DNA from: Baekduia soli
GTDB lineage: Bacteria; Actinomycetota; Thermoleophilia; Solirubrobacterales; Solirubrobacteraceae
Reading direction: 5' to 3'
DNA: 64,000 nucleotides
Assembly: GCF_007970665.1 (NCBI RefSeq)
Contig: NZ_CP042430.1
Span: 744,001 to 808,000, forward strand
The notes under the pieces are model-generated. The model saw only the letters and a program-made list of their open reading frames with translations, did not search any database and was not told where the DNA came from. A program made the position numbers and the translations under genes. Every line of letters starts with the position of its first letter. Position 1 is the stretch's first letter. This document shows, in pieces, positions 26,582 to 49,842 of the stretch.

Positions 26582-27895
26582 GTGAGCGCGCCCGTCGCGA
26601 CGGTCGGCGGCGGCGCGGGGTTCGCCGGCGACCGCCTGGACCCCGCGGTGGCGCTGGCCTCCTCGGGCCTGGTCCAGTACGTGACGCTCGAGTGCCTGGC
26701 CGAGCGCACGATGGTCCACGCGCTGCGCCAGCGGCGCCGGGGCGTGGCCGGCCATGACCCGCGGCTGCGGCTGCGGCTGGCCCCGCTGCTCGGGCCCGCC
26801 GCCGAGCACGGCTGCCGCATCGTGGCCAACCTCGGGGCCGCCGACCCCGAGCGCGCGGCCGAGGAGGTCGCGGCGCTGGCCGGCGAGCTCGGCCACGGGC
26901 GCCTCAGGGTGGCCGCCGTCGTCGGCGACGACCTCGGCGACCGCATGGGCGACGTGGCCTGGAGCGACGCGCCGGCCGAGGGCGAGTGGCTCGGCGCCCA
27001 CGCCTACACGGGCAGCGAGGGCATCGCCCGCGCGCTGCGCGAGGGTGCCGACATCGTCATCGCCGGCCGCGTGGCCGACAGCGCGCTGGCCGCGGGGACG
27101 CTGCGCGACGCGCTGGCCGACGACGGCGACGCGCTCGCCGGCGGCCTGGTCGTCGGCCACCTGCTCGAGTGCACGGGCCAGGTCACCGGCGGCAACTACA
27201 CCGGCCCCGGCGGGCGCCGCCTGACGCCCGAGCAGCTCGCCGACCTGGGCTACCCGGTCGCGCACGTCTCCGGCGACGGCAGCGCCGAGATCGCCCTGCT
27301 GCCGGGCGCGCAGGGCTGCGTCAACCGCGAGACCGTCACCCTGCAGCTGCTCTACGAGGTCCACGACCCGTCGGCCTACATCACGCCCGACGGAATCATC
27401 GACATGACGCGGATCTCCGTGGAGGAGGTCGGCCCCGACCGCGTCCGGGTCTCCGGGGCGCGCCACCGCGGCGTGCCACCGCAGCTCAAGGTTTCGGGCT
27501 TCGTGGCGCTGCCCGGCGCGATGGTCGACGTCGAGATCGGCTTCGCCTGCGTGGACGCCCTGGCCCGTGCGCGGGAGGCGGCCGAGGTCCTGCGCCTGCG
27601 CTTCGCCGCACTGGGCGCCGCCGATCCGACCCTGGACCTCGTCGGCGTGGACTCGCTGCTGGGCCCGGCGTCGGCGCCGCTGCGCTGCGACCCGCCCGAG
27701 GTGCGCGTGCACGCCTCGGTGGCCTGCGCCGACGAGGACATGGCGCGGGCGGTCGAGGACGAGTTCTACTGGCTGTCGATGGCCGGGCCGGCGGCCGGCG
27801 GCGGGATCCGCGCCGAGCGCCGCGACCACGTCGCCGTCGTCGACGGGCGCATCGACCGCACCGAGGTCCGGGAGGAGATCGTATGGGTGGGCTGA
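26582..27895 (+). CDS. Acyclic terpene utilisation AtuA-family protein (DUF1446)
   Basis: A 437-residue protein of the AtuA/DUF1446 family, whose genes go with terpene (citronellol, geranyl) breakdown in other bacteria, though the biochemical role is unclear. Signs include a glycine-rich start (GGGAGFAGDRLD), a TGSEGIARAL segment, the IAGRVADSALAAGTL motif and the ECTGQVTGGNY motif. In many relatives a C-terminal domain of about 100 residues is fused; here that part is a separate gene starting 13 bases before this stop. Start GTG 26582. Confidence 0.82.
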   Translation: MSAPVATVGGGAGFAGDRLDPAVALASSGLVQYVTLECLAERTMVHALRQRRRGVAGHDPRLRLRLAPLLGPAAEHGCRIVANLGAADPERAAEEVAALAGELGHGRLRVAAVVGDDLGDRMGDVAWSDAPAEGEWLGAHAYTGSEGIARALREGADIVIAGRVADSALAAGTLRDALADDGDALAGGLVVGHLLECTGQVTGGNYTGPGGRRLTPEQLADLGYPVAHVSGDGSAEIALLPGAQGCVNRETVTLQLLYEVHDPSAYITPDGIIDMTRISVEEVGPDRVRVSGARHRGVPPQLKVSGFVALPGAMVDVEIGFACVDALARAREAAEVLRLRFAALGAADPTLDLVGVDSLLGPASAPLRCDPPEVRVHASVACADEDMARAVEDEFYWLSMAGPAAGGGIRAERRDHVAVVDGRIDRTEVREEIVWVG

Positions 27896-28209
27896 CGGTC
27901 GGCGACATCGCCTGCGGGCGCTCGGGCGACAAGGGCACGACGCTGGACCTGACGGTCGTCGCAGCCGACGCCGGCGCCTACGCGACGCTGGAGGCCCACC
28001 TGGGTGCCGAGCTCGTCGCCGGCCTGCTCGGCGCGCCGCGGGCCGTGCGCCACGAGGTGCCGGGCCTGCTCGCGCTGAAGTTCGTGCTCGAGGGCGCGCT
28101 GGACGCGGGGCCGTGGGCCTCGCGGCGCGCGGGCATGCACTGGCAGAAGGCCGCCATCTCCCCCGTCCTGGCCCTCACGCTGGCCGAGATCGGCGCCGCA
28201 CCGGCCTGA
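27883..28209 (+). CDS. AtuA C-terminal-like small domain protein
   Basis: A 108-residue protein matching the separate C-terminal domain of AtuA-type proteins: it begins VGDIACGRSGDKGTTLDLTVVAAD and contains VPGLLALKFVLEGAL and HWQKAAI. ATG 27883 has GGAGGAG just upstream, inside the end of the larger subunit, so the pair is co-translated and probably forms one complex. A Thr/Lys-rich GDKG loop is conserved in the family. Confidence 0.72.
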   Translation: MGGLTVGDIACGRSGDKGTTLDLTVVAADAGAYATLEAHLGAELVAGLLGAPRAVRHEVPGLLALKFVLEGALDAGPWASRRAGMHWQKAAISPVLALTLAEIGAAPA

Positions 28210-31648: not shown

Positions 31649-32515
31649 GTGAGCACGACGACCCCAGCCGCCGGGCCGGGCGCGACCGACGGCCGGGACG
31701 CGCTGCTCCTCGACAGCATCACCAGCGCGTCGCCGCAGGCGGCCGGGCGGATCGTGGTCACGGGCTCGCACGGCGGCCGCTACGCCGCGGCCCTGGCGCT
31801 GCGGGCCGGGGTGGCGGCGGTGATCTTCAACGACGCGAGCATCGGCCGCGACCGCGCCGGCGTCGCCGGCCTGGACCTGCTCGACGCCGCCGGCGTCCCC
31901 GGTGCGGCCGTCGACCACCGCAGCGCGCGGATCGGCGACGCCGCCGACGCGTTGGCCCGGGGCGAGCTGTCCGTCGTCAACGCCGCGGGCCGCGAGCGCG
32001 GCTGGCAGCCCGGGATGAGGACGGAGCGCGCGGTCGCGGTGGCCGCCGGCCGGCCGGCGGCCACCGCGCGCCCGGCGCCCGAGCCGCCGGAGGAGGGCCG
32101 CCACCTCATCGCGCCCGGCCCCGTCGAGATCTGGGCGCTGGACAGCGCGTCGCTGGTCCGCGAGGCCGACGCGGGCGCCATCGTCGCCACGGGCTCGCAC
32201 GGCGGCCTGGTCGGCGGCCGGCCCGAGGCGGCGCTGCGCGTCGCGGCGCGGGCGGCCCTGTTCAACGACGCCGGCGGCGGGGCCGGCACCACCCGCCTCG
32301 GCGCGCTGCAGGCGCGGGGCATCGCGGCGGCCACGGTCAGCGCCGCCAGCGCCCGCATCGGCGACGGCCGGTCGACCTACGAGGACGGCGTGCTCTCGGC
32401 CGTCAACGACGCGGCCGCCGCGCTCGGCGGGTCCCCGGGGATGGACGCCCGGGCGTTCGCGGACCTCGTCCGGGCCCGGGCGGCCGCCGCGGCGGCGGCG
32501 GAGAGCGTGCGATGA
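31649..32515 (+). CDS. Tandemly duplicated domain protein of unknown function
   Basis: A 288-residue protein with two similar halves. Each begins with a V-x-TGSHGG motif (about residues 36-43 and 177-184), followed by an Ala-rich helix, a FNDA segment, and a part ending SARIGD and then SAVNDAA or SVVNAAG. So each unit is about 100 residues. I cannot name the family. It is the first gene of the LysR-divergent operon, overlaps the ThDP enzyme start by ATGA, and so belongs to the pathway. GTG 31649. Confidence 0.7.
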   Translation: MSTTTPAAGPGATDGRDALLLDSITSASPQAAGRIVVTGSHGGRYAAALALRAGVAAVIFNDASIGRDRAGVAGLDLLDAAGVPGAAVDHRSARIGDAADALARGELSVVNAAGRERGWQPGMRTERAVAVAAGRPAATARPAPEPPEEGRHLIAPGPVEIWALDSASLVREADAGAIVATGSHGGLVGGRPEAALRVAARAALFNDAGGGAGTTRLGALQARGIAAATVSAASARIGDGRSTYEDGVLSAVNDAAAALGGSPGMDARAFADLVRARAAAAAAAESVR

Positions 32516-34294: not shown

Positions 34295-36450
34295 ATGGGC
34301 TATCTGATCGGCGTCGACATCGGCGGGACGTTCACCGACTGCGCCGTGGTCGACGACCACGGGGCGGTCACCGTCGGCAAGGCGCCGACGACGCCGGCCG
34401 ACCCCTCGCAGGGCTTCTTCGCCGCCATCGACGAGGCGGCCGCCGCGATCGGGCTGGAGCGCCGTGCGCTGCTGGCGGCCACCGACCGCCTGGCCCACGG
34501 GACGACGGTGGCCATCAACGCCGTCGTCACGCGCACCGGCGCCCGGGTCGGGCTGCTGACGACGCGCGGCTTCACCGACACGATCCGGATCATGGACAAC
34601 GCCGGCCGCGGCATCGGCCTGTCGGTCGAGCAGCTGCTGGACTTCCCCGGCTCCCAGCCGCCGCTGCCCTTCATCGACCCCGACGACGTGGTCGGGATCG
34701 CCGAGCGCATCGACACGACCGGCCGGATCGTCGCGCCGCTGCCCGAGCACGAGGTCGCGGCGGCGATCGACGCCCTCGTCGAGCGCGGCGTGGAGGCGCT
34801 GGCGGTGTGCTTCATGTGGTCGGTCGTCGAGCCGAGCCACGAGCTGCGCGTCGCGGAGATCGCGCGCGACCGCCACCCCGGGCTCGACGTGTCGCTCTCG
34901 CACCAGATCGCGCCGCGCGTCGGCGAGTACCCGCGGATGCTGACCACGGTGCTCAACGCCTACGTCGCGCCGAAGATGGCCGAGTACTCGCGGCGCATCG
35001 AGGCCGAGGCCGAGCGCAGCGGCTACGCCAGCGACGTCCTGTTCATGCAGTCCCACGGCGGCCTGGCGCGCGGCGAGCGGATCCGGCGCCAGCCCGTCTC
35101 CACGCTGCAGTCCGGGCCCGTCGGCGGCGTGATCGGGACGAGCGAGTTCGGCGCCGTCATCGACCGCCCCAACGCGATCACGACCGACGTGGGCGGCACG
35201 ACGCTCGACGTGTCGGTCATCGTCGGCGGCCGGCCCGTCGTCAACGACGGCGTCGTCATCGAGGGCCACGAGGCCTACCTCAACGTCGTCGACGTCCAGT
35301 CCATCGGCGCCGGGGGCGGCAGCATCGCGTGGATCGACGAGGCCACGGGCACGCTGCGCGTCGGGCCCCAGAGCGCCGGGGCCGACCCCGGGCCCGTCTG
35401 CTACGGGCGCGGCGGGACCCAGCCGACGGTCACCGACGCCGACGTGGTCCTCGGGGTCCTGGACCCCGGGACGTTCCTCGGGGGCCGGCTGCAGCTCGAC
35501 GCCGAGGCCGCGCGCGCGGCGGTCGGGCGGCTGGCCGAGCGGCTGGGCCTCGGGATCGACGAGTGCGCCGCCGGCATCGTGCGCATCGCCGACGAGCGCA
35601 TGAGCGACCTCATGCGCTCGATGACCGTGCGCCGCGGGCTGGACCCGCGCGACTTCACCGTCTACGCCTTCGGGGCGGCGGCGGCGCGCACGCCGGGATC
35701 TACACGAGCGGCCTCGGCGTCCCGGAGTTCGTGGTCCCGCTGGCCGACACGGCCTCGGTCTGGTCGGCGCTGGGCGTCGCGGTCGCCGACCTGGCCGCCA
35801 CGTTCGACCAGGCGCTGTACCTCACCGCGCCGTACGATCTCGGCGCGCTGGACGCGGCGTTCGCCGCGCTGGAGGAGCAGGCGCGCGAGGCCACCGTCGG
35901 CGACAAGCGCTTCGCCGAGGAGATCACCCTCGAGCGCCACGCCAACTGCAAGTACGGGCTGCAGGTCTTCGAGGTCGAGGCCGCGATGCCGCTCGGCCCG
36001 GTGACCGACGACAGCGTCGCGGCGCTGCTGGAGGACTTCGAGCGCCGCTACGCCCAGCAGTTCGGCGCCGAGGCGGGCTACGCCGACGCGGGCATCGTCA
36101 TCACCGGTGTGCGCGTCAAGGTCTCGGGCGTCGTGCGCAAGCCGTCGGTCGTGCGGCGCCCGCCGGCCGAGGGCGCCGACGCCGGCGCCGCCCGGCGCGG
36201 TCATCGCGACGTCCATTGGGAGGAGCTCGGCGCGCGCGCGAGCACCGCGATCTGGGACGGCGGGCGGCTGCAGCCCGGGACGACCCTGGAGGGCCCGGCG
36301 GTCATCGAGCTGCCCGACACGACGATCGTGGTCCGGCCGGGGCACCGGGCGAGCATCGACGAGTACGGCAACGCCGTCGTCCAGGTGGACGCCGTGCGCC
36401 CCACCGGCCCGGCCGCCGTCGCGGCCGGCCGTCTCGAGGAGGACGTGTGA
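34295..36450 (+). pseudogene. Hydantoinase/oxoprolinase A subunit, frameshifted
   Basis: ATP-dependent hydantoinase or acetone-carboxylase-type HyuA subunit. The N-terminal part (IGVDIGGTFTDCAVVDD, ASKHA-type fold) is intact to Phe459-Gly460 at 35669-35674. There the expected FGGAGPLHA-type motif reads FG then shifts: the rest (AHAGIYTSGLGVPEFVVPLADTA...) continues in another frame up to 36450. A single missing base in the GC-rich tract ggggcggcggcgg at about 35672-35682 explains it. Either an assembly slip, a young pseudogene or a recoding site. ATG 34295 has AGGAG upstream; the stop overlaps hyuB (TGATG). Confidence 0.85.
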
Positions 36451-38753
36451 TGTCGGAGTACTCCGAGCGCTGGCGCTCGCTCAACGAGGGCTACCTGCCC
36501 GACGGCCGGGCGCTGGAGATCGACCCGGGGCTGGCGCTGCACGAGGCCGCGGCGACCGACATCGACCCCATCACCTACGAGGTCGTCCGCTCGCGCCTGT
36601 GGGCGATCAACCAGGACCACATGCACACGATCCGCCGGATCTCCGGATCCGGGGTGACCGTCTACGCCTGGGACTTCAGCGTGTCGATCCAGACCGAGCT
36701 CGGCGACGGCGTCGTCTTCGGCCCCGGCATCCTGTTCTTCGCGGGCTGCGCCGACCTCGTCGTCAAGTGGACGCTCGAGCACCGCTCGGGCAACGTCGGC
36801 ATCAACCCGGGCGACGTGTTCGCGCAGTGCGACCCGTGGGTGGGGACCAACCATCAGATGGACGCCGCGGTCTACGCGCCCGTGTTCGTGGACGGCAAGC
36901 TGTTCTGCTGGGTCTACAACTGCGTCCACCAGCAGGAGGTCGGCGGCATCGAGCCCGGCGGCTTCGTGCAGCAGGCCAAGGACACGTACTACGAGGCGAC
37001 GGGCTTCCCGCCGCTCAAGCTCATCGACGCCGGCGAGTGGCGCGCCGACCTCGTCGACGCGTGGATCCGCCGCTCGCGCCTGCCCGAGCTCAACCACCTC
37101 GAGCTCAAGTCCCAGGTCGCGGGGGTGGACTTCGCCCGCGCGCGGCTCGAGGAGACCATCGCCACCTACGGCGCGGAGACCGTCAAGGGCGTCATGCACA
37201 CGATGGTCGCCAACACCAAGGAGGTCGTCCGCTCGCGCCTGGAGTCGGTCCCCGACGGCACGTGGCGCGACGTCCGGCTGTGCGCCGGCGCGCTCCCGGG
37301 CGACCCCGAGCTCTACCGCCTGGAGCTCGCGATCACCAAGGACGGCGGCACGCTCGTCTTCGACAACGACGGAACCGACCCCGCGGTGGGCTCCTTCAAC
37401 ATGACCCCCGGCGTGTGGCGGGCCACCCTGCTGCACGCGGCCCTCCCGCTGCTGGCCTGGGACCAGTACCTGTGCGGCGCGGGCGTCCTGGCCTGCCTGG
37501 AGTTCCGGCCGAGCCTCGGGGCCATCACCACCGCGCGCCACCCGGCGGCGTGCAGCACGTCGCTGGGTACGACGAACTCGGTCACCCAGGCCCAGTACCT
37601 GCTGAGCAAGATGCTCGGCAGCGCGCCGGAGCAGCGCCGCAGCATGCTGGGCTCCTCGGCGATCCACACCCAGACCTACACGCAGATGTTCGGCACCGAC
37701 CGCCACGGCGCGCCGTACGCGAACTTCCCGTTCGACGGGATCGGCGGCGGGTCGGGCGCGTGCTCGTTCCGCGACGGCATCGACCACGGCGGCGGCCTCA
37801 TCTCCACGCAGCTGCGCATCGGCAACGCGGAGGAGTGGGAGCGGGTCATCCCGTTCCTGTACCTCTACCGGCGCGAGCTGCCGACGAGCGGCGGCCACGG
37901 CCGCTGGCGCGGCGGCACGACCCTGGCCACGGGCTGGACGGGCTGGGGCACCGACGCCTCGTTCATCGCGTCGGGCGGGATGATGCAGGCGGCGACGCAG
38001 GCCAACGGCCTGTCGGGCGCGCTGCCGGGCAGCGCCGGGATGTTCTGGTCGGCCCTGGACACCGAGGTCCGCGACCGGCTGGCGGCCGGCACGTGGCCGG
38101 CCGACGGGCAGGAGCTGCGGGCCATGGCCCCCCACGGCGACCTCCCGCCGGCCAAGAAGTTCGACAACCGCCTGGCCGACGGCGACGTCTTCGAGGTCGT
38201 GCCGCCGCTGGCGGCCGGGCACGGCGACCCGCTGCTGCGCGAGCCGGCGCTCGTCGCCGACGACGTCCGCCGGCGCCGGCTCACCACCGCCGACGCCGAC
38301 CGGATCTACGGCGTCGTCCTGCGCGACGGGGCCGCCGACGGCGAGGCCACGCAGGCCCGCCGCGACGAGCTGCGGGCGCTGCGCCTGGCCGCCCTGACCG
38401 ACCTGCCGGCCACGCGGGCGGGCAGCGCCGCCGAGGCCCGGGTCATCTGCTTCGCGCTGGAGACCGTCGACGTCCGGGCCGTCGACGGCGCGCCGCGGCT
38501 GTGCTGCGCCGCGTGCGGCGAGGTGCTGGGCACGGTGCAGGAGGGCTACCGGGCCGGCTGCGGGCGCCTGGAGATGGCGCCCGACGCGATCGACCCGGAG
38601 CTGTTCCTGGCCCCCGCGACGCAGCTGCGCGAGACGCTCGTCCTGCGCCAGTACGTCTGCCCGGGCTGCGCCGCGCTGCTGGACTCCGACATCTGCCGGC
38701 CCGGCGACCCGTCCTATCGCGACGTCGCGCTGGCCGAGGCGGCGCTGACATGA
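36450..38753 (+). CDS. Hydantoinase/carboxylase B subunit with zinc-ribbon tail
   Basis: HyuB-type protein of 767 residues, about 200 longer than common HyuB. The N-terminal 550 residues match the family (DPITYEVVRSRLWAINQDHM, GDVFAQCDPWVGTNHQMDA, DNDGTDPAVGSFNM). The added C-terminal part holds paired Cys (CCAACGE, then CPGC), like a zinc ribbon or the gamma subunit of acetone carboxylase. This hints at an acetone/acetophenone-carboxylase-like enzyme rather than a plain hydantoinase. ATG 36450 overlaps the hyuA stop. It needs HyuA, which is frameshifted upstream. Confidence 0.85.
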   Translation: MSEYSERWRSLNEGYLPDGRALEIDPGLALHEAAATDIDPITYEVVRSRLWAINQDHMHTIRRISGSGVTVYAWDFSVSIQTELGDGVVFGPGILFFAGCADLVVKWTLEHRSGNVGINPGDVFAQCDPWVGTNHQMDAAVYAPVFVDGKLFCWVYNCVHQQEVGGIEPGGFVQQAKDTYYEATGFPPLKLIDAGEWRADLVDAWIRRSRLPELNHLELKSQVAGVDFARARLEETIATYGAETVKGVMHTMVANTKEVVRSRLESVPDGTWRDVRLCAGALPGDPELYRLELAITKDGGTLVFDNDGTDPAVGSFNMTPGVWRATLLHAALPLLAWDQYLCGAGVLACLEFRPSLGAITTARHPAACSTSLGTTNSVTQAQYLLSKMLGSAPEQRRSMLGSSAIHTQTYTQMFGTDRHGAPYANFPFDGIGGGSGACSFRDGIDHGGGLISTQLRIGNAEEWERVIPFLYLYRRELPTSGGHGRWRGGTTLATGWTGWGTDASFIASGGMMQAATQANGLSGALPGSAGMFWSALDTEVRDRLAAGTWPADGQELRAMAPHGDLPPAKKFDNRLADGDVFEVVPPLAAGHGDPLLREPALVADDVRRRRLTTADADRIYGVVLRDGAADGEATQARRDELRALRLAALTDLPATRAGSAAEARVICFALETVDVRAVDGAPRLCCAACGEVLGTVQEGYRAGCGRLEMAPDAIDPELFLAPATQLRETLVLRQYVCPGCAALLDSDICRPGDPSYRDVALAEAALT

Positions 38754-43131: not shown

Positions 43132-43980
43132 ATGGACCCGGCGGCCTTCCGCGAGGCCCAGCACCGCCACTGGGACGCGGCGGCGGTGGGATGGGAGCAG
43201 TGGAGCGCGTTCAACGACCGCGCCGACGCGCACATCAGCGCGCGGCTGGTCGAGCTCGCCGGCGTACGGCCCGGCAGCCGGGTCCTGGACGTCGCGGCCG
43301 GCTACGGCGAGCCGGCGCTGACCGCCGCGCGCCGGGCGGGCCCGGAGGGCCGCGTGGTGGCCACCGACCTCTCCGCCGAGATGCTCGCGTCCGGGCGCCG
43401 GCGCGCCGCGGCGGCCGGACTGGACACCGTGGAGTTCCTGGCGTGCGGCGCCTGCAGCCTCGACTTCCCGTCCGCGAGCTTCGACGCGGCCGTCTCGCGC
43501 TGGGGGATCATCTTCGAGCCCGACCCGGAGGCCGCCGCGCGGCGCGTCCGGGGCTTCCTCAAGCCGGGTGCGCGGATCGCGATCAGCTCCTGGGGCGAGC
43601 CGGAGGAGGTCCCCTTCCTCGCGATCCCGATGCGCACGGCGATGCAGCGGTTCGGCGTGGCCCCGCCGCCGCCCGGGACGCCGGGGCCCCTGTCGCGGCC
43701 CACCCCCGCGGCCCTCGGCGGGCTGCTCGAGGCGGCCGGGTTCTCCGACGTCGCGGTCGAGCGGGACGCGGTGACGTTCGTCTTCGACGCCCCGGAGCGG
43801 TTCACCGCCTACGTCCGGGCGATCTCGGCCCCGATCCGCGCGATGGTCGAGCAGCACGCCGGCGAGGCCCAGGAGGAGGCCTGGGACGCGATCACCCAGG
43901 CCGCGGCGGAGGCGGCGGGCGGCCCGGGACCGGTGACGCTCACCAACGTCGTGCTGCTCGCCTCGGGCACCGCCCCGTAG
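43132..43980 (+). CDS. Class I SAM-dependent methyltransferase
   Basis: A 282-residue methyltransferase: motif I VLDVAAGYGEPAL, the acidic end of beta-2 (VVATDLSAEML), and post-motif segments. It is like the UbiE/COQ5-type group. An upstream in-frame ATG at 43099 is possible and follows a TAACGT box at 43080-43085; ATG 43132 has a weak GAAGG and fits homologous starts. The gene is convergent with the isochorismatase gene. Target not known. Confidence 0.85.
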   Translation: MDPAAFREAQHRHWDAAAVGWEQWSAFNDRADAHISARLVELAGVRPGSRVLDVAAGYGEPALTAARRAGPEGRVVATDLSAEMLASGRRRAAAAGLDTVEFLACGACSLDFPSASFDAAVSRWGIIFEPDPEAAARRVRGFLKPGARIAISSWGEPEEVPFLAIPMRTAMQRFGVAPPPPGTPGPLSRPTPAALGGLLEAAGFSDVAVERDAVTFVFDAPERFTAYVRAISAPIRAMVEQHAGEAQEEAWDAITQAAAEAAGGPGPVTLTNVVLLASGTAP

Positions 43981-43981
43981 G

Positions 43982-44671
43982 TCAGGACCGGCGCTCGAGG
44001 TGCGCGCGGACCTCGTCGCTGGCGCGCACGTCGGCGTACTGGCGGTCGAGGTCGAACAGCGCGACGAGGTGCGAGACCTCGAAGCGGTCGAACACGCAGT
44101 CCTCGACCACGACGGTCCGGAAGTTGTAGGACGCGCTGTCGACGGCGGTCGCGCGCACGCAGTTGGCGGTGGAGCCGCCCGTGACCACCACCGTGTCGAT
44201 CCCGCGGTCGACGAGCAGGCTCATCAGCTCCGTGCCGAAGAACGCGCTGGGCTTGCGCTTGACGAGCACGATGTCGCCGTGCTGGGGCGCGACGGACGCG
44301 TGGATCGCGGCGCCCTCCGAGCCCTCCCAGAGCCAGCCCTCGGTCTGCAGCGGCTCGCGCTTGCGGAGGTAGACGCCGCCGTCGCTGCCGTCGCGGCGCA
44401 GCTCCATGCGCGTGTAGACCACCGGCGCGCCGGCCGCGCGGGCGGTGGCGAGCAGCGGCGCGATGCGCTGCAGCGCGCGCTCGGCCACGGGGCCGCAGGC
44501 CGACGGGTAGGCGTGCGTCGAGCCGGGCGGCGGCCCCACCATGTAGTTCTGGACATCGATGACGAGCACCGCGCAGCGCTCGCCCATGCCCACGCGCCGG
44601 CCGAAGCGCGCGCCGGCGAGTCGCTCGCGGTCGGCGTCGCCCAGCAGGTGCTCCCAGGCGCGCGGGGCCAC
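43982..44671 (-). CDS. Isochorismatase-family cysteine hydrolase
   Basis: A 229-residue amidohydrolase of the isochorismatase fold with the catalytic triad Asp39 (VLVIDVQN), Lys138 or Lys140 (VLVKRKPSAF) and Cys171 (GGSTANCVRAT). This group includes N-carbamoylsarcosine amidase, ureidoacrylate hydrolase, maleamate amidase and biuret hydrolase; these remove ammonia from amides or carbamoyl groups. GTG 44671 directly abuts the cyclase gene stop, so they are one operon. A role in losing nitrogen from an opened ring is inferred. Confidence 0.88.
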   Translation of the reverse strand: MAPRAWEHLLGDADRERLAGARFGRRVGMGERCAVLVIDVQNYMVGPPPGSTHAYPSACGPVAERALQRIAPLLATARAAGAPVVYTRMELRRDGSDGGVYLRKREPLQTEGWLWEGSEGAAIHASVAPQHGDIVLVKRKPSAFFGTELMSLLVDRGIDTVVVTGGSTANCVRATAVDSASYNFRTVVVEDCVFDRFEVSHLVALFDLDRQYADVRASDEVRAHLERRS

Positions 44672-45547
44672 CTAGACCACCGCGACGGGGTTGACCATCG
44701 AGGCCGACGCCCCGCGCAACCGCAGCGGGGCGATCACGCAGCAGAACTCGGTGACCCCGTCGGCGGCGAGCTCCTGGGTGCGCACGTTCTCCAGCAGGTA
44801 GCAGCCGTAGCGCGCCAGGCAGTGCTGGTGCACGGGGAACACCTCGTCGGGCGGATCCCCCGGGACCGCCTCGACGGCCCAGGTGTCGGCGCCGATGACC
44901 GCGACGCGGCGATCGGTGCACCAGATCGCCGCCTCGATGCCGATCCCGGGCTCCGTCGTCGCGTAGCGGCCGGGATCCTGCGCCCACAGCGACCCCCAGC
45001 CCGTGTGGAGGACGAGGACGTCGCCGGCCCGCACCTCCACGCCGGCCCGCGCCGCGGCCGCCTCGAGGTCGGCGGCCGTGATGAGCTCGCTGTCGCCGAG
45101 CATCGGCACCCGGCGCAGGGCCGCGATGTCGAGCAGGACCCCGCGCGTCACGAGCGGCGGCAGGCCCTCCATCCCGAGCTCGGTGAGCCCGTCGGGCCCG
45201 ACGATCGCGTCGTAGCGCACGCCGTTGTAGGCGTGGTCGCGGATCCCGACGTGGGCCAGCCCGTCCAGGTGCGTGCCGCTGTGCAGCGCACCGGAGACGC
45301 TCTCCTCCAGCGAGGCCACGCCGTTGGGGCCGCGGAACCGGCCCGGGAGCACGCGGTCGAGGATCAGGGAGTGGCGCCAGTAGCGCCACATCCGCGCCGG
45401 CGAGGCGGCGTCGAGCGTCTGGGCCAGGCCGTAGCGCCGGCCCGACCGGATGAGCGCCCCCGCGTCGCGGACCTGCGCCTCGCCGATCTCGTTGACCGCG
45501 CCGAGCCGGTCCTCGGCGCCGTAGCGATGCGGGAACGGCGAGGTCAT
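44672..45547 (-). CDS. Cyclase-family metal-dependent hydrolase
   Basis: A 291-residue member of the cyclase/kynurenine formamidase-like family. The metal motif H-x-GTH-x-D-x2-x-H appears as HSGTHLDGLAH, and VLVLHTGWG with later Glu/His (VHQHCLARYG) complete the site. Relatives hydrolyse cyclic imides, isatin or formylkynurenine. It overlaps the upstream fusion gene by ATGA and abuts the isochorismatase gene, so ring opening followed by deamidation is the natural reading. Confidence 0.85.
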   Translation of the reverse strand: MTSPFPHRYGAEDRLGAVNEIGEAQVRDAGALIRSGRRYGLAQTLDAASPARMWRYWRHSLILDRVLPGRFRGPNGVASLEESVSGALHSGTHLDGLAHVGIRDHAYNGVRYDAIVGPDGLTELGMEGLPPLVTRGVLLDIAALRRVPMLGDSELITAADLEAAAARAGVEVRAGDVLVLHTGWGSLWAQDPGRYATTEPGIGIEAAIWCTDRRVAVIGADTWAVEAVPGDPPDEVFPVHQHCLARYGCYLLENVRTQELAADGVTEFCCVIAPLRLRGASASMVNPVAVV

Positions 45548-47601
45548 CCGCGCCGCTCGAACTCCGCGTCGGCGGTCGTGCCGACCTCCGCCGGCCCCGT
45601 CCACCGGATCTCGCCTGGCGTCCGGCTCAGCCGGGCCACGATGTTCGGCATGACGAGCGTCCCGAGGTCCGGGTCGGGCACCTCCACGAACGTGCCGCGC
45701 GCCTGGAAGTGCGGGTCCTCGCTGATCTGCCGCGCGTCCTGGACGGGCGCGATCGGCGCCTCGGCGGCCGCGAAGCGCTCCAGGACGGCGTCGCGCTCGT
45801 GCTCGGCGATCCACGCGGCGACCAGCCCGTCGATCTCGTCGGCGTGCGCGCGGCGGGCCGCGGCGTCGGCGAAGCGCGCGTCGTCGGCCAGCTCGGGGCG
45901 CTCGATCGCCGCCAGGACCCGCTGGGCGATGCGCTGGGTCCCCGCGGAGATGGCGACCCAGTGGCCGTCGGCCGTGCGGTAGGTGTTGCGCGGCGCGGTG
46001 CGCGGCGACCGGTTGCCCTGGCGCTGCTGCACGACGCCGAGGTGGGCGAACTCCGTGAGCACCGGCCCGAGCAGGCTGAACAGCGGCTCGTACAGGCTGA
46101 GGTCGATGACCTGCCCGAGGTGCCCGCCGCCGGCGTCGCGCCAGTACAGCGCGGTGAGCACGGCCGACGTGCCGACCATCGCCGTGATGCCGTCGGCCAG
46201 GCCGAACGGCGGCAGCGTCGGCGGTCCGTCGGGGGCGCCCGTGATGAACGCGAAGCCCGAGAACGCCTCGGCGAGCGTGCCGAACCCGGGCTGCGAGCTC
46301 TTGGGCCCGTATTGCCCGAAGCCCGTGACGCGCACCATGACGATGCCCGGGTTGATGGCCTCCAGGTCGGCGGGCCCCAGGCCCCAGGCCTCCATGCGCC
46401 CGGGGCGGAAGTTCTCGATCACCACGTCGGCCTCGGCCACCAGGCGCCGGACGGTGTCGCGCGCCTCCTCCCGGCCGAGGTCGAGCGTGATGACGCGCTT
46501 GTTGCGCGACACGACCTTCCACCACAGCGGCACGCCGTCCTTGGCCTCGCCCCACCGACGCAGGTCGTCGCCGCGCGGGTGCTCGACCTTGATGACGTCG
46601 GCGCCGAAGTCGCCGAGGTTGGTGGCGATGAGGGGCCCGGCGTAGAGGCTGGAGAGGTCGAGGACGCGGACGCCGTGCAGCGCGCGGGGCCGGCCGGCGG
46701 GCCCCGTGCCCTGTGCCGGCGCGGGGCGCTCGGGGCCGGAGCCGGCGAGCACGCGCCGCGCCCGCTCGGCGACGGGGTAGTCGATCAGCTTGCCGTCCAC
46801 GGTGATGGCCGCGACGCCGGCGGCCTCGGCCTGCTCGAACGCGTCGAGGATGCGGCGGGCGCCCGCGAGCTCCGCGGCGCCCGGGGCGAACGCCTCGGCG
46901 ATGACCGGCACCTGCCCCGGATGGATCGCATGCTTGGAGCCGAACCCGAGCGCACGGGCCTCGTCGGCCTCGACGCGCAGCCCCTCGAGGTCGTCGACCA
47001 CGGCGTAGGACCCGTCGTGGGGCGCGTCGAGCCCCGCGCGGCGCGAGGCCAGCACGATCGCCGTCTTGGCCGCCAGCAGCGTGGCGCCGAGGCGGCCGCC
47101 GGGCGGGGGCCACGCGACGCCGATGTCCAGGCTCATGTCGCCGGCCCCGAAGCCGAGCGACGTGACGCGCGGGCTGGCCGTGGCGATCGCGTCGACCTGG
47201 GCGACGCCCGCCGCGGTCTCGATCGTCGGCAGGATCGCGATCGCGCCGGGCGGCAGGCCGCGCTCGCGCTCGAGCTCGCCGATCATCCAGTCGGCGATCC
47301 CGACCTCGCGGGCGCCCTCGGACTTCGGCAGGACGATGCCGCTGAGCCCGCGCTGCACGACGACCTCGAGGTCCGCGCGCAGGTGCGTGCTGTCGACGGC
47401 GTTGACCCGGACGTGCAGCTCGAGCCCGGCGCCGTGGTCGGCGAGCGCCTGGGCGACCCGCACCCGCGCGGCAGGCTTCGCGCGCTCGGCGACCGCGTCC
47501 TCGAGGTCGAGGATGAACGCCGAGGTCGGCAGCTCCGGCAGCTTGGCGAGCTTGCGGGCGTCGCTGCCCGGGACGTAGAGCATGACCGCGTGGGAGCCCA
47601 T
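45544..47601 (-). CDS. Fusion of citrate-lyase-like (HpcH/CitE) aldolase and family III CoA transferase
   Basis: A two-enzyme fusion of about 685 residues. The N-terminal half (about 1-285) is a HpcH/CitE lyase (MLYVPGSDARKL, FILDLEDAV, LPTIETAAGV, GFGAGDMSLDIG, KHAIHPGQV). The C-terminal half (about 305-685) is a CaiB/BaiF CoA transferase (VLDLSSLYAGPLIATNLGDFGADVIKVE). At the usual place of the catalytic Asp the sequence reads PGFGTLAEAFSG. Together they could activate an acid and then split the CoA ester, as with malyl- or citramalyl-CoA. Start ATG 47601 sits 12 bases after a CATAAT box; GTG 47613 is an alternative. Confidence 0.88.
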   Translation of the reverse strand: MGSHAVMLYVPGSDARKLAKLPELPTSAFILDLEDAVAERAKPAARVRVAQALADHGAGLELHVRVNAVDSTHLRADLEVVVQRGLSGIVLPKSEGAREVGIADWMIGELERERGLPPGAIAILPTIETAAGVAQVDAIATASPRVTSLGFGAGDMSLDIGVAWPPPGGRLGATLLAAKTAIVLASRRAGLDAPHDGSYAVVDDLEGLRVEADEARALGFGSKHAIHPGQVPVIAEAFAPGAAELAGARRILDAFEQAEAAGVAAITVDGKLIDYPVAERARRVLAGSGPERPAPAQGTGPAGRPRALHGVRVLDLSSLYAGPLIATNLGDFGADVIKVEHPRGDDLRRWGEAKDGVPLWWKVVSRNKRVITLDLGREEARDTVRRLVAEADVVIENFRPGRMEAWGLGPADLEAINPGIVMVRVTGFGQYGPKSSQPGFGTLAEAFSGFAFITGAPDGPPTLPPFGLADGITAMVGTSAVLTALYWRDAGGGHLGQVIDLSLYEPLFSLLGPVLTEFAHLGVVQQRQGNRSPRTAPRNTYRTADGHWVAISAGTQRIAQRVLAAIERPELADDARFADAAARRAHADEIDGLVAAWIAEHERDAVLERFAAAEAPIAPVQDARQISEDPHFQARGTFVEVPDPDLGTLVMPNIVARLSRTPGEIRWTGPAEVGTTADAEFERRG

Positions 47602-47613
47602 CAGGCGGGCCAC

Positions 47614-47619
47614 ATTATG
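47614..47619 (-). promoter_or_regulatory. -10 box CATAAT before the fusion gene
   Basis: CATAAT on the minus strand ends 12 bases before ATG 47601, one of the few AT-rich hexamers in the area. Confidence 0.4.
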
Positions 47620-47655
47620 CGATCGGATCCGCCCCGGCCGCGCCGGGGCGCCCGG

Positions 47656-47661
47656 TAGTGT
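47656..47661 (+). promoter_or_regulatory. -10-like TAGTGT before the ICL/PEPM gene
   Basis: TAGTGT lies 37 bases before ATG 47699; a strong GGAGGAGG site follows it. Confidence 0.3.
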
Positions 47662-47698
47662 CCCGGCCGATCGTCAACGACCTGGAGGAGGCAGGGCG

Positions 47699-48553
47699 AT
47701 GCCGCCCAAGCTGCTGTCCCAGGACGGCATCATCGTCGCCCCCGGGGTGTACGACGTCCTGTCGGCCATCATCGCGGAGCAGGCCGGTGCCGGCGCGCTC
47801 TACATGACCGGCAACGGCCAGGCCTCGTCGGCCCTGGGCCTGCCCGACCTGGGCCTGATCACCCTGAGCGAGATGCGCGAGCGGATCCGCGCGACGCGGG
47901 CGCGGGTCTCGGTCCCGATCATCGCCGACGCCGACACCGGCTTCGGGAGCCTCCTCATGATCCAGCGCGCGGTGCAGGAGTACGAGGCCGCCGGTGCCGA
48001 CGCGATCCAGATCGAGGACCAGGTCGATCCCAAGCGCTGCGGCCACGAGCTCGGCCGCGCGGTGGTCGAGGTCGGCGAGATGGTCGCGCGGATCACCGCG
48101 GCGGTGCAGGCGCGGCGGTCGCGCGACTTCGCGGTGATCGCGCGCACGGACGCGCGCACCGACCTGGGCCTCGACGCGGCCATCGAGCGCGGGAACGCCT
48201 ATGCGCGGGCGGGGGCGGACGTCATCTTCGTCGAGTCCCCGGAGTCCGTGGAGGAGCTGGGCCGCGCCGTGCGCGAGATCGACGCCCCCGTGCTCGCCAA
48301 CATGGTCGAGACGGGGCGCACCCCGTACCTGTCGACCGCCGAGCTGGGCGCCCTCGGCGTCAAGGTCGCGATCTACCCCAGCATCGGGTTCCTGGCCGCG
48401 GCGTTCGCCGTGCGGACCGCGTACGGGGAGCTCCTGACCCGGGGACGCGCGGTCAGCCTGGACCGCATGCTCAGCCTCGACGAGTACCACGCGATCCTGT
48501 CGTTCTCCGACTTCGCCGAGACGAGCGAGCGGCTCGCCGGCGAGGGCGCCTGA
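47699..48553 (+). CDS. Isocitrate lyase/PEP mutase superfamily lyase
   Basis: A 284-residue TIM-barrel enzyme of the ICL/PEPM family: VAPGVYDVLSA at the start, metal-binding ADADTGFG and IEDQVDPKRCGH (the KRCGH loop with active-site Cys), ARTDAR and a C-terminal helix for swapping. Family members cleave 2-methylisocitrate, oxaloacetate or dimethylmalate. KRCGH resembles 2-methylisocitrate lyase and carboxyvinyl-carboxyphosphonate enzymes. ATG 47699 has GGAGGAGG 8 bases upstream. It is divergent from the CitE fusion and likely in the same catabolic network. Confidence 0.9.
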   Translation: MPPKLLSQDGIIVAPGVYDVLSAIIAEQAGAGALYMTGNGQASSALGLPDLGLITLSEMRERIRATRARVSVPIIADADTGFGSLLMIQRAVQEYEAAGADAIQIEDQVDPKRCGHELGRAVVEVGEMVARITAAVQARRSRDFAVIARTDARTDLGLDAAIERGNAYARAGADVIFVESPESVEELGRAVREIDAPVLANMVETGRTPYLSTAELGALGVKVAIYPSIGFLAAAFAVRTAYGELLTRGRAVSLDRMLSLDEYHAILSFSDFAETSERLAGEGA

Positions 48554-48564
48554 GGCCGCGGGCG

Positions 48565-49380
48565 ATGCCCGGGCCGCGGGAGGTCGAGCTCTCGTTGGAC
48601 GGCCGCGTCGCGACGCTCCGGCTGAACCGGCCGGAGCGGCTCAACGCGATCTCGCAGTCGCTGATGGACGCCCTCGGCGACGCGCTGGACGTCATCGACG
48701 CCCAGCCCGACTGCCGCGTGATCGTGCTCGGGGGCAACGGCCGGGCGTTCAGCGCCGGCGGCGACCTGACGGAGTTCCTGGGGCGCCTGCGGGCCAACGA
48801 CCCGGCCGGGCTCACGGCGTTCGTGGGTCAGGTGACCCGCACGCTGTCGCGGCTGGAGGACAACCCGCGGCCGGTGATCGCCGCGGTCAACGGCGTCGCG
48901 GTCGCCGGCGGGCTGGAGCTGATCCTGTGCTGCGACATCGTCGTCGCCGCGCGCGGGGCGATGATCGGCGACGGGCACCTGACCTACGGGGTGCTCCCGG
49001 GGGGCGGCTCGGCGGTGCGGCTCATCCGCAAGGTGCCCGCCAACGTCGCGACCCGGCTGCTGCTCACCGGCGACCTCGTCCCGGCCGAGGAGCTCCGCGA
49101 CCACGGCCTGGTCAACGAGGTCGTCGACGCCGACCGGCTCGACCGGCACGTCGCCGAGCTGGCCGAGCGCATCGCCCGGCTCAGCCCGCGAGCCCTCGCC
49201 GAGGTCAAGCGCGTCGCGCGACGGGCCGCCGAGCTCCCCGTCGCCGAGGGCCTGCGCCTGGAGCACGAGGCGTTCGGCGCCTACGCCGACTCGCCCGACC
49301 TGGCCGAGGGGCTCGCGGCGTTCGAGGAGCGCCGGCGCCCGGAGTTCCCGCCGGCCGCCCGTGGCGAGGGACGGCGGTGA
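48565..49380 (+). CDS. Enoyl-CoA hydratase/isomerase
   Basis: Crotonase-fold protein of 271 residues. CoA/oxyanion loops are AFSAGGDLTEF and GVAVAGGLELILCCD; the second catalytic Glu position is in the DGHLTYGVLPGGGSA region, where a Gly-rich stretch replaces the common Glu, so isomerase or other activity is possible. It starts 11 bases after the lyase stop and overlaps the next frame by GTGA, showing that a third gene once followed in this operon. Confidence 0.88.
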   Translation: MPGPREVELSLDGRVATLRLNRPERLNAISQSLMDALGDALDVIDAQPDCRVIVLGGNGRAFSAGGDLTEFLGRLRANDPAGLTAFVGQVTRTLSRLEDNPRPVIAAVNGVAVAGGLELILCCDIVVAARGAMIGDGHLTYGVLPGGGSAVRLIRKVPANVATRLLLTGDLVPAEELRDHGLVNEVVDADRLDRHVAELAERIARLSPRALAEVKRVARRAAELPVAEGLRLEHEAFGAYADSPDLAEGLAAFEERRRPEFPPAARGEGRR

Positions 49381-49632
49381 CCGGTGCCGCCCCGGCGGAC
49401 CTCGATGCGCTGCTGCGCGCGGCGGCGGCGCGCTGGACGGCGAGCGAGCTCGTCTTCCCGGCGTTCCTGCCCGACGGATGGTTCCGCACCGGCGACCTCG
49501 GGTCATGGACCCGGAGGGCCGCCTGACCTGGGCGGGGCGCATCAAGGACATGCTGAAGGTCTGTGGCGAGAACGTCGCCGCGCTCGAGGCCGAGTCGTTC
49601 CTGGTCCCCCACCCGGCGATCGACATCGCCGC
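49377..49632 (+). pseudogene. Remnant of acyl-CoA synthetase (AMP-forming)
   Basis: The frame opens with GTG overlapping the hydratase stop and gives about 29 N-terminal residues of a typical synthetase, then jumps straight into the late motif DGWFRTGDLG. After that a base is missing and the reading continues in another frame (DPEGRLTWAGRIKDMLKV, GENVAALEAESFLVPHPA) until about 49632, where related sequence stops abruptly. So the large middle of the adenylation domain is deleted, one frameshift is present and the C-terminal end is lost at the island border. Confidence 0.8.
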
Positions 49633-49842
49633 ATGTGAGGCGGGCTGCGCTCGGCGGCGTGCCGCGACTCGGTTGAGCACCGCTGCGGGCGGGCCCGGCG
49701 ATGGCGTGGCTGCGCCGGCGATCGCCAGGAAGGTCTCCCGGCGGACGTCGACGGTGCCGTATCCGCCCTGGTCAGGCGAGCGAGTACCGCCTCGCAGGCG
49801 GGTGCGAGTCGGGGAGACGCGGGCCTCGGCGGCCGGCGAGTG

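Follow-up and report, generated by a model that had tools for sequence, protein, structure and literature searches.

Which metabolic step is served by a single polypeptide that combines a CitE/HpcH-type coenzyme A (CoA)-ester lyase with a family III CoA-transferase, and whose gene is coupled to those of a cyclase-type and an isochorismatase-type hydrolase? The question is raised by a 64,000-nucleotide stretch of the Baekduia soli genome (contig NZ_CP042430.1, positions 744,001 to 808,000), which is referred to here as the window. An original prediction, made from the sequence alone, had read these genes as one route that opens a cyclic amide or imide, removes nitrogen, attaches CoA and splits the CoA ester. 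Our analysis assigns a probability of roughly 45% to the reading that the fusion is a bifunctional CoA-transferase/CoA-ester lyase, which completes the degradation of a small cyclic amide, imide or ureide. A more general finding is that the transferase clade is recurrently coupled to C–C lyases and to interchangeable C–N hydrolases.

Two enzyme domains in a single reading frame

Positions 45544-47613 of the window form a single minus-strand frame of 689 amino acids, or about 73 kDa of protein, which starts at GTG 47613; an alternative ATG at 47601, four codons downstream, would yield 685 amino acids. Residues 10-232 match the Pfam family PF03328 (HpcH_HpaI) with 132.3 bits (gathering score 25), and residues 312-675 match PF02515 (CoA_transf_3) with 407.2 bits (gathering score 23.3), covering profile positions 1-361 of 366. 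Chance falls far short of explaining two full-length domain matches in a single frame. The CitE/HpcH-type lyase half (46720..47613, minus strand) and the family III CoA-transferase half (45544..46680, minus strand) are joined by a linker rich in Gly, Pro and Ala (residues 291-311, 46681..46743, minus strand), which was read directly from the translation.

The junction was inspected for signs of a sequence error. Past codon 280, the first stop codons of the other two frames lie at about codons 397 and 979, so that an insertion or deletion near residue 300 would not yield a CitE protein of normal length, and a single-indel artefact at the junction is ruled out. The only in-frame start codon at residues 280-330 is GTG 288, located within the CitE part. 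The third-position guanine-plus-cytosine (GC) content of codons 271-330 is 0.97-1.0, the same as in the flanks, and thus the linker reads as coding. A scan of 43700-47900 for consensus promoters and terminators found neither kind.

Catalytic residues and family membership of the two halves

The residues E38, D39, R69, E132, D159 and D278 of the lyase half are the same in all 43 relatives compared; we take them to be the metal and CoA-ester active-site residues. Asp474 of the transferase half is invariant in all 59 relatives compared and aligns, among the alignments listed, with an Asp in three solved transferase relatives, so it is presumably the catalytic Asp and the counterpart of Frc Asp169. 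A PGFGTLAEA motif, considered as a sign that this residue is missing, proved misleading, as the Asp sits later in the chain. When the fusion was aligned together with single-domain proteins, the CitE rows were poorly placed, at 14-21% identity.

None of the specific family models tried gave a name to either half. The transferase half scored 223.9 bits against the NCBIfam equivalog for succinyl-CoA:mesaconate CoA-transferase (NF041294, cut-off 700), and the lyase half scored 182.2 bits against citrate lyase beta (TIGR01588, cut-off 443.4) and 150.1 bits against RipC of the itaconate route (NF038242, cut-off 375). All cut-offs were missed, and assignment to a named equivalog was given up for both halves. 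Furthermore, the transferase loop reads GNRS at residues 533-536 and not GNxH, the loop of Mct and YfdE according to the available part of a published account (PMC5592240). The fourth loop position is Ser in 42 of the 59 transferase relatives, with no His among the five residue types listed. The GNRS loop argues that the transferase is not of the YfdE/Mct (ACOCT) type. For both domains of the fusion, the predicted activity is likely.

The coupled cyclase and isochorismatase-type genes

The TGA stop codon of the fusion (45544-45546) and the ATG of the next gene (45545-45547) form an ATGA overlap (45544-45547). This second gene (44672..45547, minus strand) encodes a metal-dependent hydrolase of the cyclase family, and its stop codon ends at 44672, with zero spacing to the GTG at 44671 that starts the third gene (43982..44671, minus strand), encoding a C–N hydrolase of the isochorismatase family.

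The cyclase matches PF04199 and carries the metal motif HxGTHxDxxxH as HSGTHLDGLAH at residues 89-99. Its structural model has a mean predicted local distance difference test (pLDDT) score of 75.3, with two stretches under 50. A Foldseek search with this model returned 5ibz, an uncharacterised cyclase, as best match (E 2.8e-21), followed by isatin hydrolase (5.2e-12) and, lower in the ranking, kynurenine formamidase (6.0e-10). Identity is 29-31% to 5ibz and 18-23% to isatin hydrolase and kynurenine formamidase in the fold search. The model indicates that the cyclase shares the fold of the latter two enzymes.

The third protein matches PF00857 and has the Asp-Lys-Cys triad D39, K138 and C171, which is also present in 12 of 12 relatives. 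Among solved proteins, its closest relative is N-carbamoylsarcosine amidohydrolase (124.6 bits), followed by 3ot4/3uao (98.0 bits), which we take to be maleamate amidase, while solved isochorismatases of known role score lower (vibriobactin-specific 3tb4, 47.4 bits; 2fq1, 26.6 bits). The solved structure nearest to it is that of a C–N hydrolase, which favours a role in amide or ureide breakdown. It remained below the cut-offs for RutB (TIGR03614, 56.2 vs 377.95 bits) and for the biuret hydrolase BiuH (NF050097, 48.3 vs 370 bits). The fusion, the two hydrolase domains and the tight coupling of the three genes had all been part of the original prediction, and all of them held up.

Gene neighbourhoods of the transferase relatives

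Related loci (80) were found by search patterns that contain the CitE half and nothing of the cyclase or isochorismatase. From the fetched loci, after removal of duplicate short loci, transferases of 330-500 amino acids with at least 43% identity were taken and dereplicated at 80% identity, which reduced 105 rows to 58; one relative (L006) was added later, giving the 59 of the residue counts, and the context labels of L005 and L006 were set by hand. Because 14 of the 58 loci extend for less than 3 kb to one side, the following counts, all for a distance of 6.5 kb, are lower bounds.

A CitE gene is found near 41 of the 58 relatives, in 26 of them as the immediate neighbour on the transferase strand; this linkage is inflated because the search patterns include the CitE half. 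Cyclase genes are near 22 relatives (adjacent in 17), MmgE/PrpD genes near 21, hydantoinase-type amidohydrolase genes near 17, genes for enzymes of the 3-hydroxy-3-methylglutaryl (HMG)-CoA-lyase type near 11, isochorismatase genes near 8 (adjacent in 2) and PuuE-type genes near 3. Taken by function, 48 of the 58 relatives have a C–C lyase (CitE or HMG-CoA-lyase type) in the neighbourhood, 30 have a C–N hydrolase (cyclase, hydantoinase/amidohydrolase, PuuE type or isochorismatase), and 27 have both. Neighbourhood types are clustered on the trees, with 30 changes on the transferase tree (42.9 on average after shuffling) and 22 on the lyase tree (30.9 after shuffling); such clustering would also be expected from shared descent.

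Transferase relatives adjoin C–C lyases and C–N hydrolases in actinobacteria, in haloarchaea and on one Beijerinckiaceae contig. The likely ring-opening enzyme differs between clusters, being an isatin-hydrolase-like cyclase, a protein of the dihydropyrimidinase (hydantoinase)/allantoinase type or one of the PuuE type, and this variety favours a shared kind of step over chance neighbours. Two hydantoinase-type proteins, one actinobacterial and one haloarchaeal, match the dihydropyrimidinase and allantoinase models below the cut-offs, and two PuuE-type proteins match the PuuE allantoinase model, likewise below its cut-off. On three haloarchaeal megaplasmids (L102, L106, L107) isochorismatase and amidohydrolase genes adjoin the transferase gene and a C–C lyase gene. 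These clusters also contain an LLM oxidoreductase; 3-isopropylmalate dehydratase genes follow the lyase gene on two of them, and the third has an aconitase/3-isopropylmalate dehydratase gene some 9 kb upstream. Other plasmid relatives (L100, L101, L103, L104, L105) are without such hydrolases.

Two gene sets recur among the loci. One of them (L026, L046, L064, L078 and others) is a conserved cluster of caiB, cyclase, MmgE/PrpD and hydantoinase-type amidohydrolase genes with citE nearby; Aeromicrobium and Nocardioides are examples of genera that have it. The other (L015, L033, L058, L172 and others) combines several ADP-ribosylglycohydrolase-like genes and a ribokinase-like gene with caiB and citE; it occurs in many Streptomyces, in the genus of the window (G001) and in other genomes, and related sets are present in Calidithermus. 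No account of this second set was found in openly licensed PubMed Central papers.

The genome of B. soli itself contains further clusters of this kind: an MmgE-cyclase-CitE arrangement with hydantoinase genes and an isochorismatase (L168), a cluster of isochorismatase, HMG-CoA-lyase-type, transferase, phosphoenolpyruvate (PEP)-mutase-type and isopropylmalate-dehydratase-type genes (L169), a citE-caiB-PuuE-type cluster (L170) and a cyclase gene next to a distant transferase gene (L171). Nine more distant transferase genes of this genome, picked by eye from coordinates and leaving one short broken match uncounted, served as controls. CitE matches within 6.5 kb were found for 0 of these 9, compared to 41 of 58 in the clade (Fisher p ~7e-5). 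One of the nine (L171) adjoins a cyclase, and therefore cyclase linkage is not confined to the transferase clade of the fusion. In a scan of the class, 3 of 15 transferase hits have an isochorismatase within 3 kb, where about 0.12 would be expected, although the three genomes share one family and are not fully independent. At a fourth place a weaker isochorismatase stands immediately upstream.

Rarity and origin of the fusion

None of the 80 related loci, which come from a one-genome-per-species collection, carries a second fusion; in three of them both genes share a frame and are separated by a stop codon. No second two-domain frame was detected in three overlapping genome sets (61 relatives, 299 members of the class, 396 members of the phylum) when the best-scoring places (up to 19, 3 and 2 per genome, respectively) were considered at strict E-values. 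A place in one genome (G203) spans both halves with a stop codon within. Among 809 plasmid records with a match, 4 are matched over at least 80% of the query, every one in two pieces. The sole open frames of at least 450 amino acids with both halves in 190 loci are the window's own (L001, L138). No description of the fusion or of the gene set was found in openly licensed PubMed Central papers at title and abstract level. The fusion is a variant, specific to its lineage, of a gene pair that is common.

Both halves point to one source of this pair. In the trees of the transferase half and of the lyase half the fusion is sister to the Calidithermus proteins, with values of 99 and 98, respectively, in the Shimodaira-Hasegawa-like approximate likelihood ratio test (SH-aLRT). 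Both trees come from quick searches, in which long branches were flagged, and the lyase tree is limited to rows of 230-380 amino acids. In Calidithermus chliarophilus citE and caiB lie in matching order and frame, with one stop codon and 33 codons between them. Since both halves are sister to one Calidithermus pair, the fusion most likely arose, as far as such phylogenies indicate, from a co-inherited citE-caiB pair.

Proposed route and alternative explanations

According to the proposed route the cyclase-type metalloenzyme would open the ring or hydrolyse a ring-derived amide, and the isochorismatase-type Cys hydrolase would take off the amide or ureido nitrogen, leaving a dicarboxylate or hydroxydicarboxylate. 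The transferase half would then charge this acid with CoA, taken for example from succinyl-CoA or acetyl-CoA, and the CitE half would cleave the 3-hydroxyacyl-CoA (malyl-, methylmalyl- or citramalyl-CoA type) to an acyl-CoA and a 2-oxo acid. We infer the single reactions, their order, the substrate and any channelling.

Several observations weigh against this route. The exact set of fusion, cyclase and isochorismatase was seen once, cyclase and isochorismatase occur together within 6.5 kb of only 1 of the 58 relatives, and the CitE linkage is overstated by the search patterns. Neither half meets the cut-off of any named NCBIfam equivalog. In addition, the Calidithermus pair stands among ADP-ribosylglycohydrolase genes, so that amide chemistry is not the only setting of a CoA-transfer/cleavage pair; a ribokinase-like frame, recognised by inspection, lies farther away in one of the two Calidithermus genomes. 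The idea that the three genes form a recurring unit is not supported, and a constant association of the three is contradicted by the neighbourhoods of the relatives. The broad outline of the original prediction, in which a ring is opened, nitrogen removed, CoA attached and a C–C bond cleaved, is supported by the recurrent lyase and C–N hydrolase neighbours, and the two domains, separate in the relatives, are often still linked to hydrolases.

The same counts bear on the possibility, somewhat unlikely in our judgement, that the fusion is a general module degrading a common hydroxydicarboxylate of the malate, citramalate or methylmalate type, with cyclase and isochorismatase as passengers of a catabolic island. 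It would account for the single occurrence of the gene set and for the 28 of 58 relatives without a recognised C–N hydrolase within 6.5 kb, among them the pairs of Calidithermus and Streptomyces that lie beside ADP-ribosylglycohydrolase genes. Nevertheless, 28 is an upper bound given the loci that are short on one side, the ATGA overlap and zero spacing couple the three genes, and the transferase clade is repeatedly linked to C–N hydrolases in distant groups. It is rather doubtful that the isochorismatase-type protein acts as an N-carbamoyl (ureido) hydrolase on a ring of the hydantoin or dihydropyrimidine kind, perhaps together with HyuA and HyuB (34295-38753). The match to N-carbamoylsarcosine amidohydrolase, the repeated hydantoinase/allantoinase-type neighbours of transferase relatives and the presence of HyuA and HyuB in the window are in line with such a ureide route; yet HyuA is frameshifted and on the opposite strand, and half-amide hydrolysis is equally open given the match to 3ot4/3uao, which is taken to be a maleamate amidase. 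That two separate genes were joined by a sequence error is very improbable. No other fusion turned up in the genome and locus scans, the HyuA frameshift shows that broken frames do occur in the window, and a stop codon lost through base substitution in the assembly is possible in principle, but the other two frames have no stop near the junction, a separate transferase would lack a start codon and the coding signal runs continuously across the linker.

The proposed cyclic amide, imide or ureide route also has a more specific, improbable version, in which the fusion is a putative one-chain counterpart of citrate/citramalate lyase that works without a carrier protein and closes an undescribed N-heterocycle route, the parts of which recur in actinobacteria and haloarchaea with ring-opening enzymes that can replace one another. 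The transferase half would draw CoA from acetyl-CoA, the product of the lyase half, and a catalytic CoA would cycle inside the single protein. A hydroxydicarboxylate from a cyclic imide, amide or ureide would thereby be converted to acetate and a 2-oxo acid with no net use of activated CoA.

If the cyclic amide, imide or ureide route is true, CoA activation and C–C cleavage can be joined in one enzyme, and widespread clusters would degrade such compounds by one of several ring-opening enzymes, a family III CoA-transferase and a C–C lyase. Rings of these types are known from natural products, pollutants and drug residues. No account of clusters for their breakdown of this kind was found in openly licensed PubMed Central papers. 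The fusion would be a handy single protein for learning which acid the unfused pairs use.

Further features of the window

Divergent from the fusion lies a gene of the PEP-mutase/methylisocitrate-lyase type (47699..48553, plus strand, PF13714). Its product scores 273.2 bits against the prpB model, below the cut-off of 354.4, and has a 46% relative in the cluster L169 with transferase and isochorismatase. It is followed on its 3′ side by an enoyl-CoA hydratase/isomerase gene (48565..49380, plus strand, PF00378); both genes are possible members of the route. At 49380-49640, 3′ of the hydratase gene, short frames resemble by eye the remnants of an AMP-binding acyl-CoA ligase, with DGWFRTGDLG and then ...GRIKDMLKVCGENVAALEAE....

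HyuA (34295-36450) is frameshifted near 35675-35690 in a GCG-rich run, with its N-terminal and central domains in one frame and its C-terminal domain in another; it is either a pseudogene or the result of a sequence error. A 288-amino-acid protein (31649-32515) between a gene of the LysR type and one for a thiamine pyrophosphate (TPP) enzyme has two similar inner stretches (VTGSHGG...) and no Pfam match. Two overlapping genes at 26582-28209 encode an AtuA-type protein and a ferredoxin-like partner, and an AtuA gene also adjoins the Halomarina cluster L107.

Comparison with known systems

In citrate and citramalate lyase (CitF-CitE-CitD) a transferase and a CitE-type lyase work as a unit on a hydroxy acid. 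These enzymes use an acyl carrier protein and a transferase of another family; unlike them, the window protein fuses a family III CoA-transferase to the lyase. The two families of the fusion are the same as those of the succinyl-CoA:mesaconate and succinyl-CoA:malate CoA-transferases and of the CitE-family malyl-, methylmalyl- and citramalyl-CoA lyases. In the methylaspartate cycle and the 3-hydroxypropionate bi-cycle transferase and lyase are separate proteins. The chemistry of these cycles is of the same kind as that proposed for the fusion, as far as the available part of the published account describes it: C4-C5 dicarboxylates serve as substrates of class III transferases and malyl-CoA-type lyases and are activated before the hydroxyacyl-CoA is split (PMC5592240).

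For the preceding steps, isatin hydrolase and kynurenine formamidase have their metal-binding motif and, according to the model, their fold in common with the cyclase of the window. The imidase/half-amidase route of Blastobacter is a similar pathway for cyclic imides. In the nicotinate catabolism of Aspergillus an imide ring is opened and the amide hydrolysed to yield a hydroxydicarboxylate, by HxnM, related to PuuE/PgdA, and HxnN, related to FAAH1, as stated in the accessible part of that account, which contains no CoA step (PMC9304392). HxnM and HxnN are outside the cyclase and isochorismatase families found in the window; ring opening followed by amide hydrolysis is common to the Aspergillus route and, as proposed, to the one considered here.

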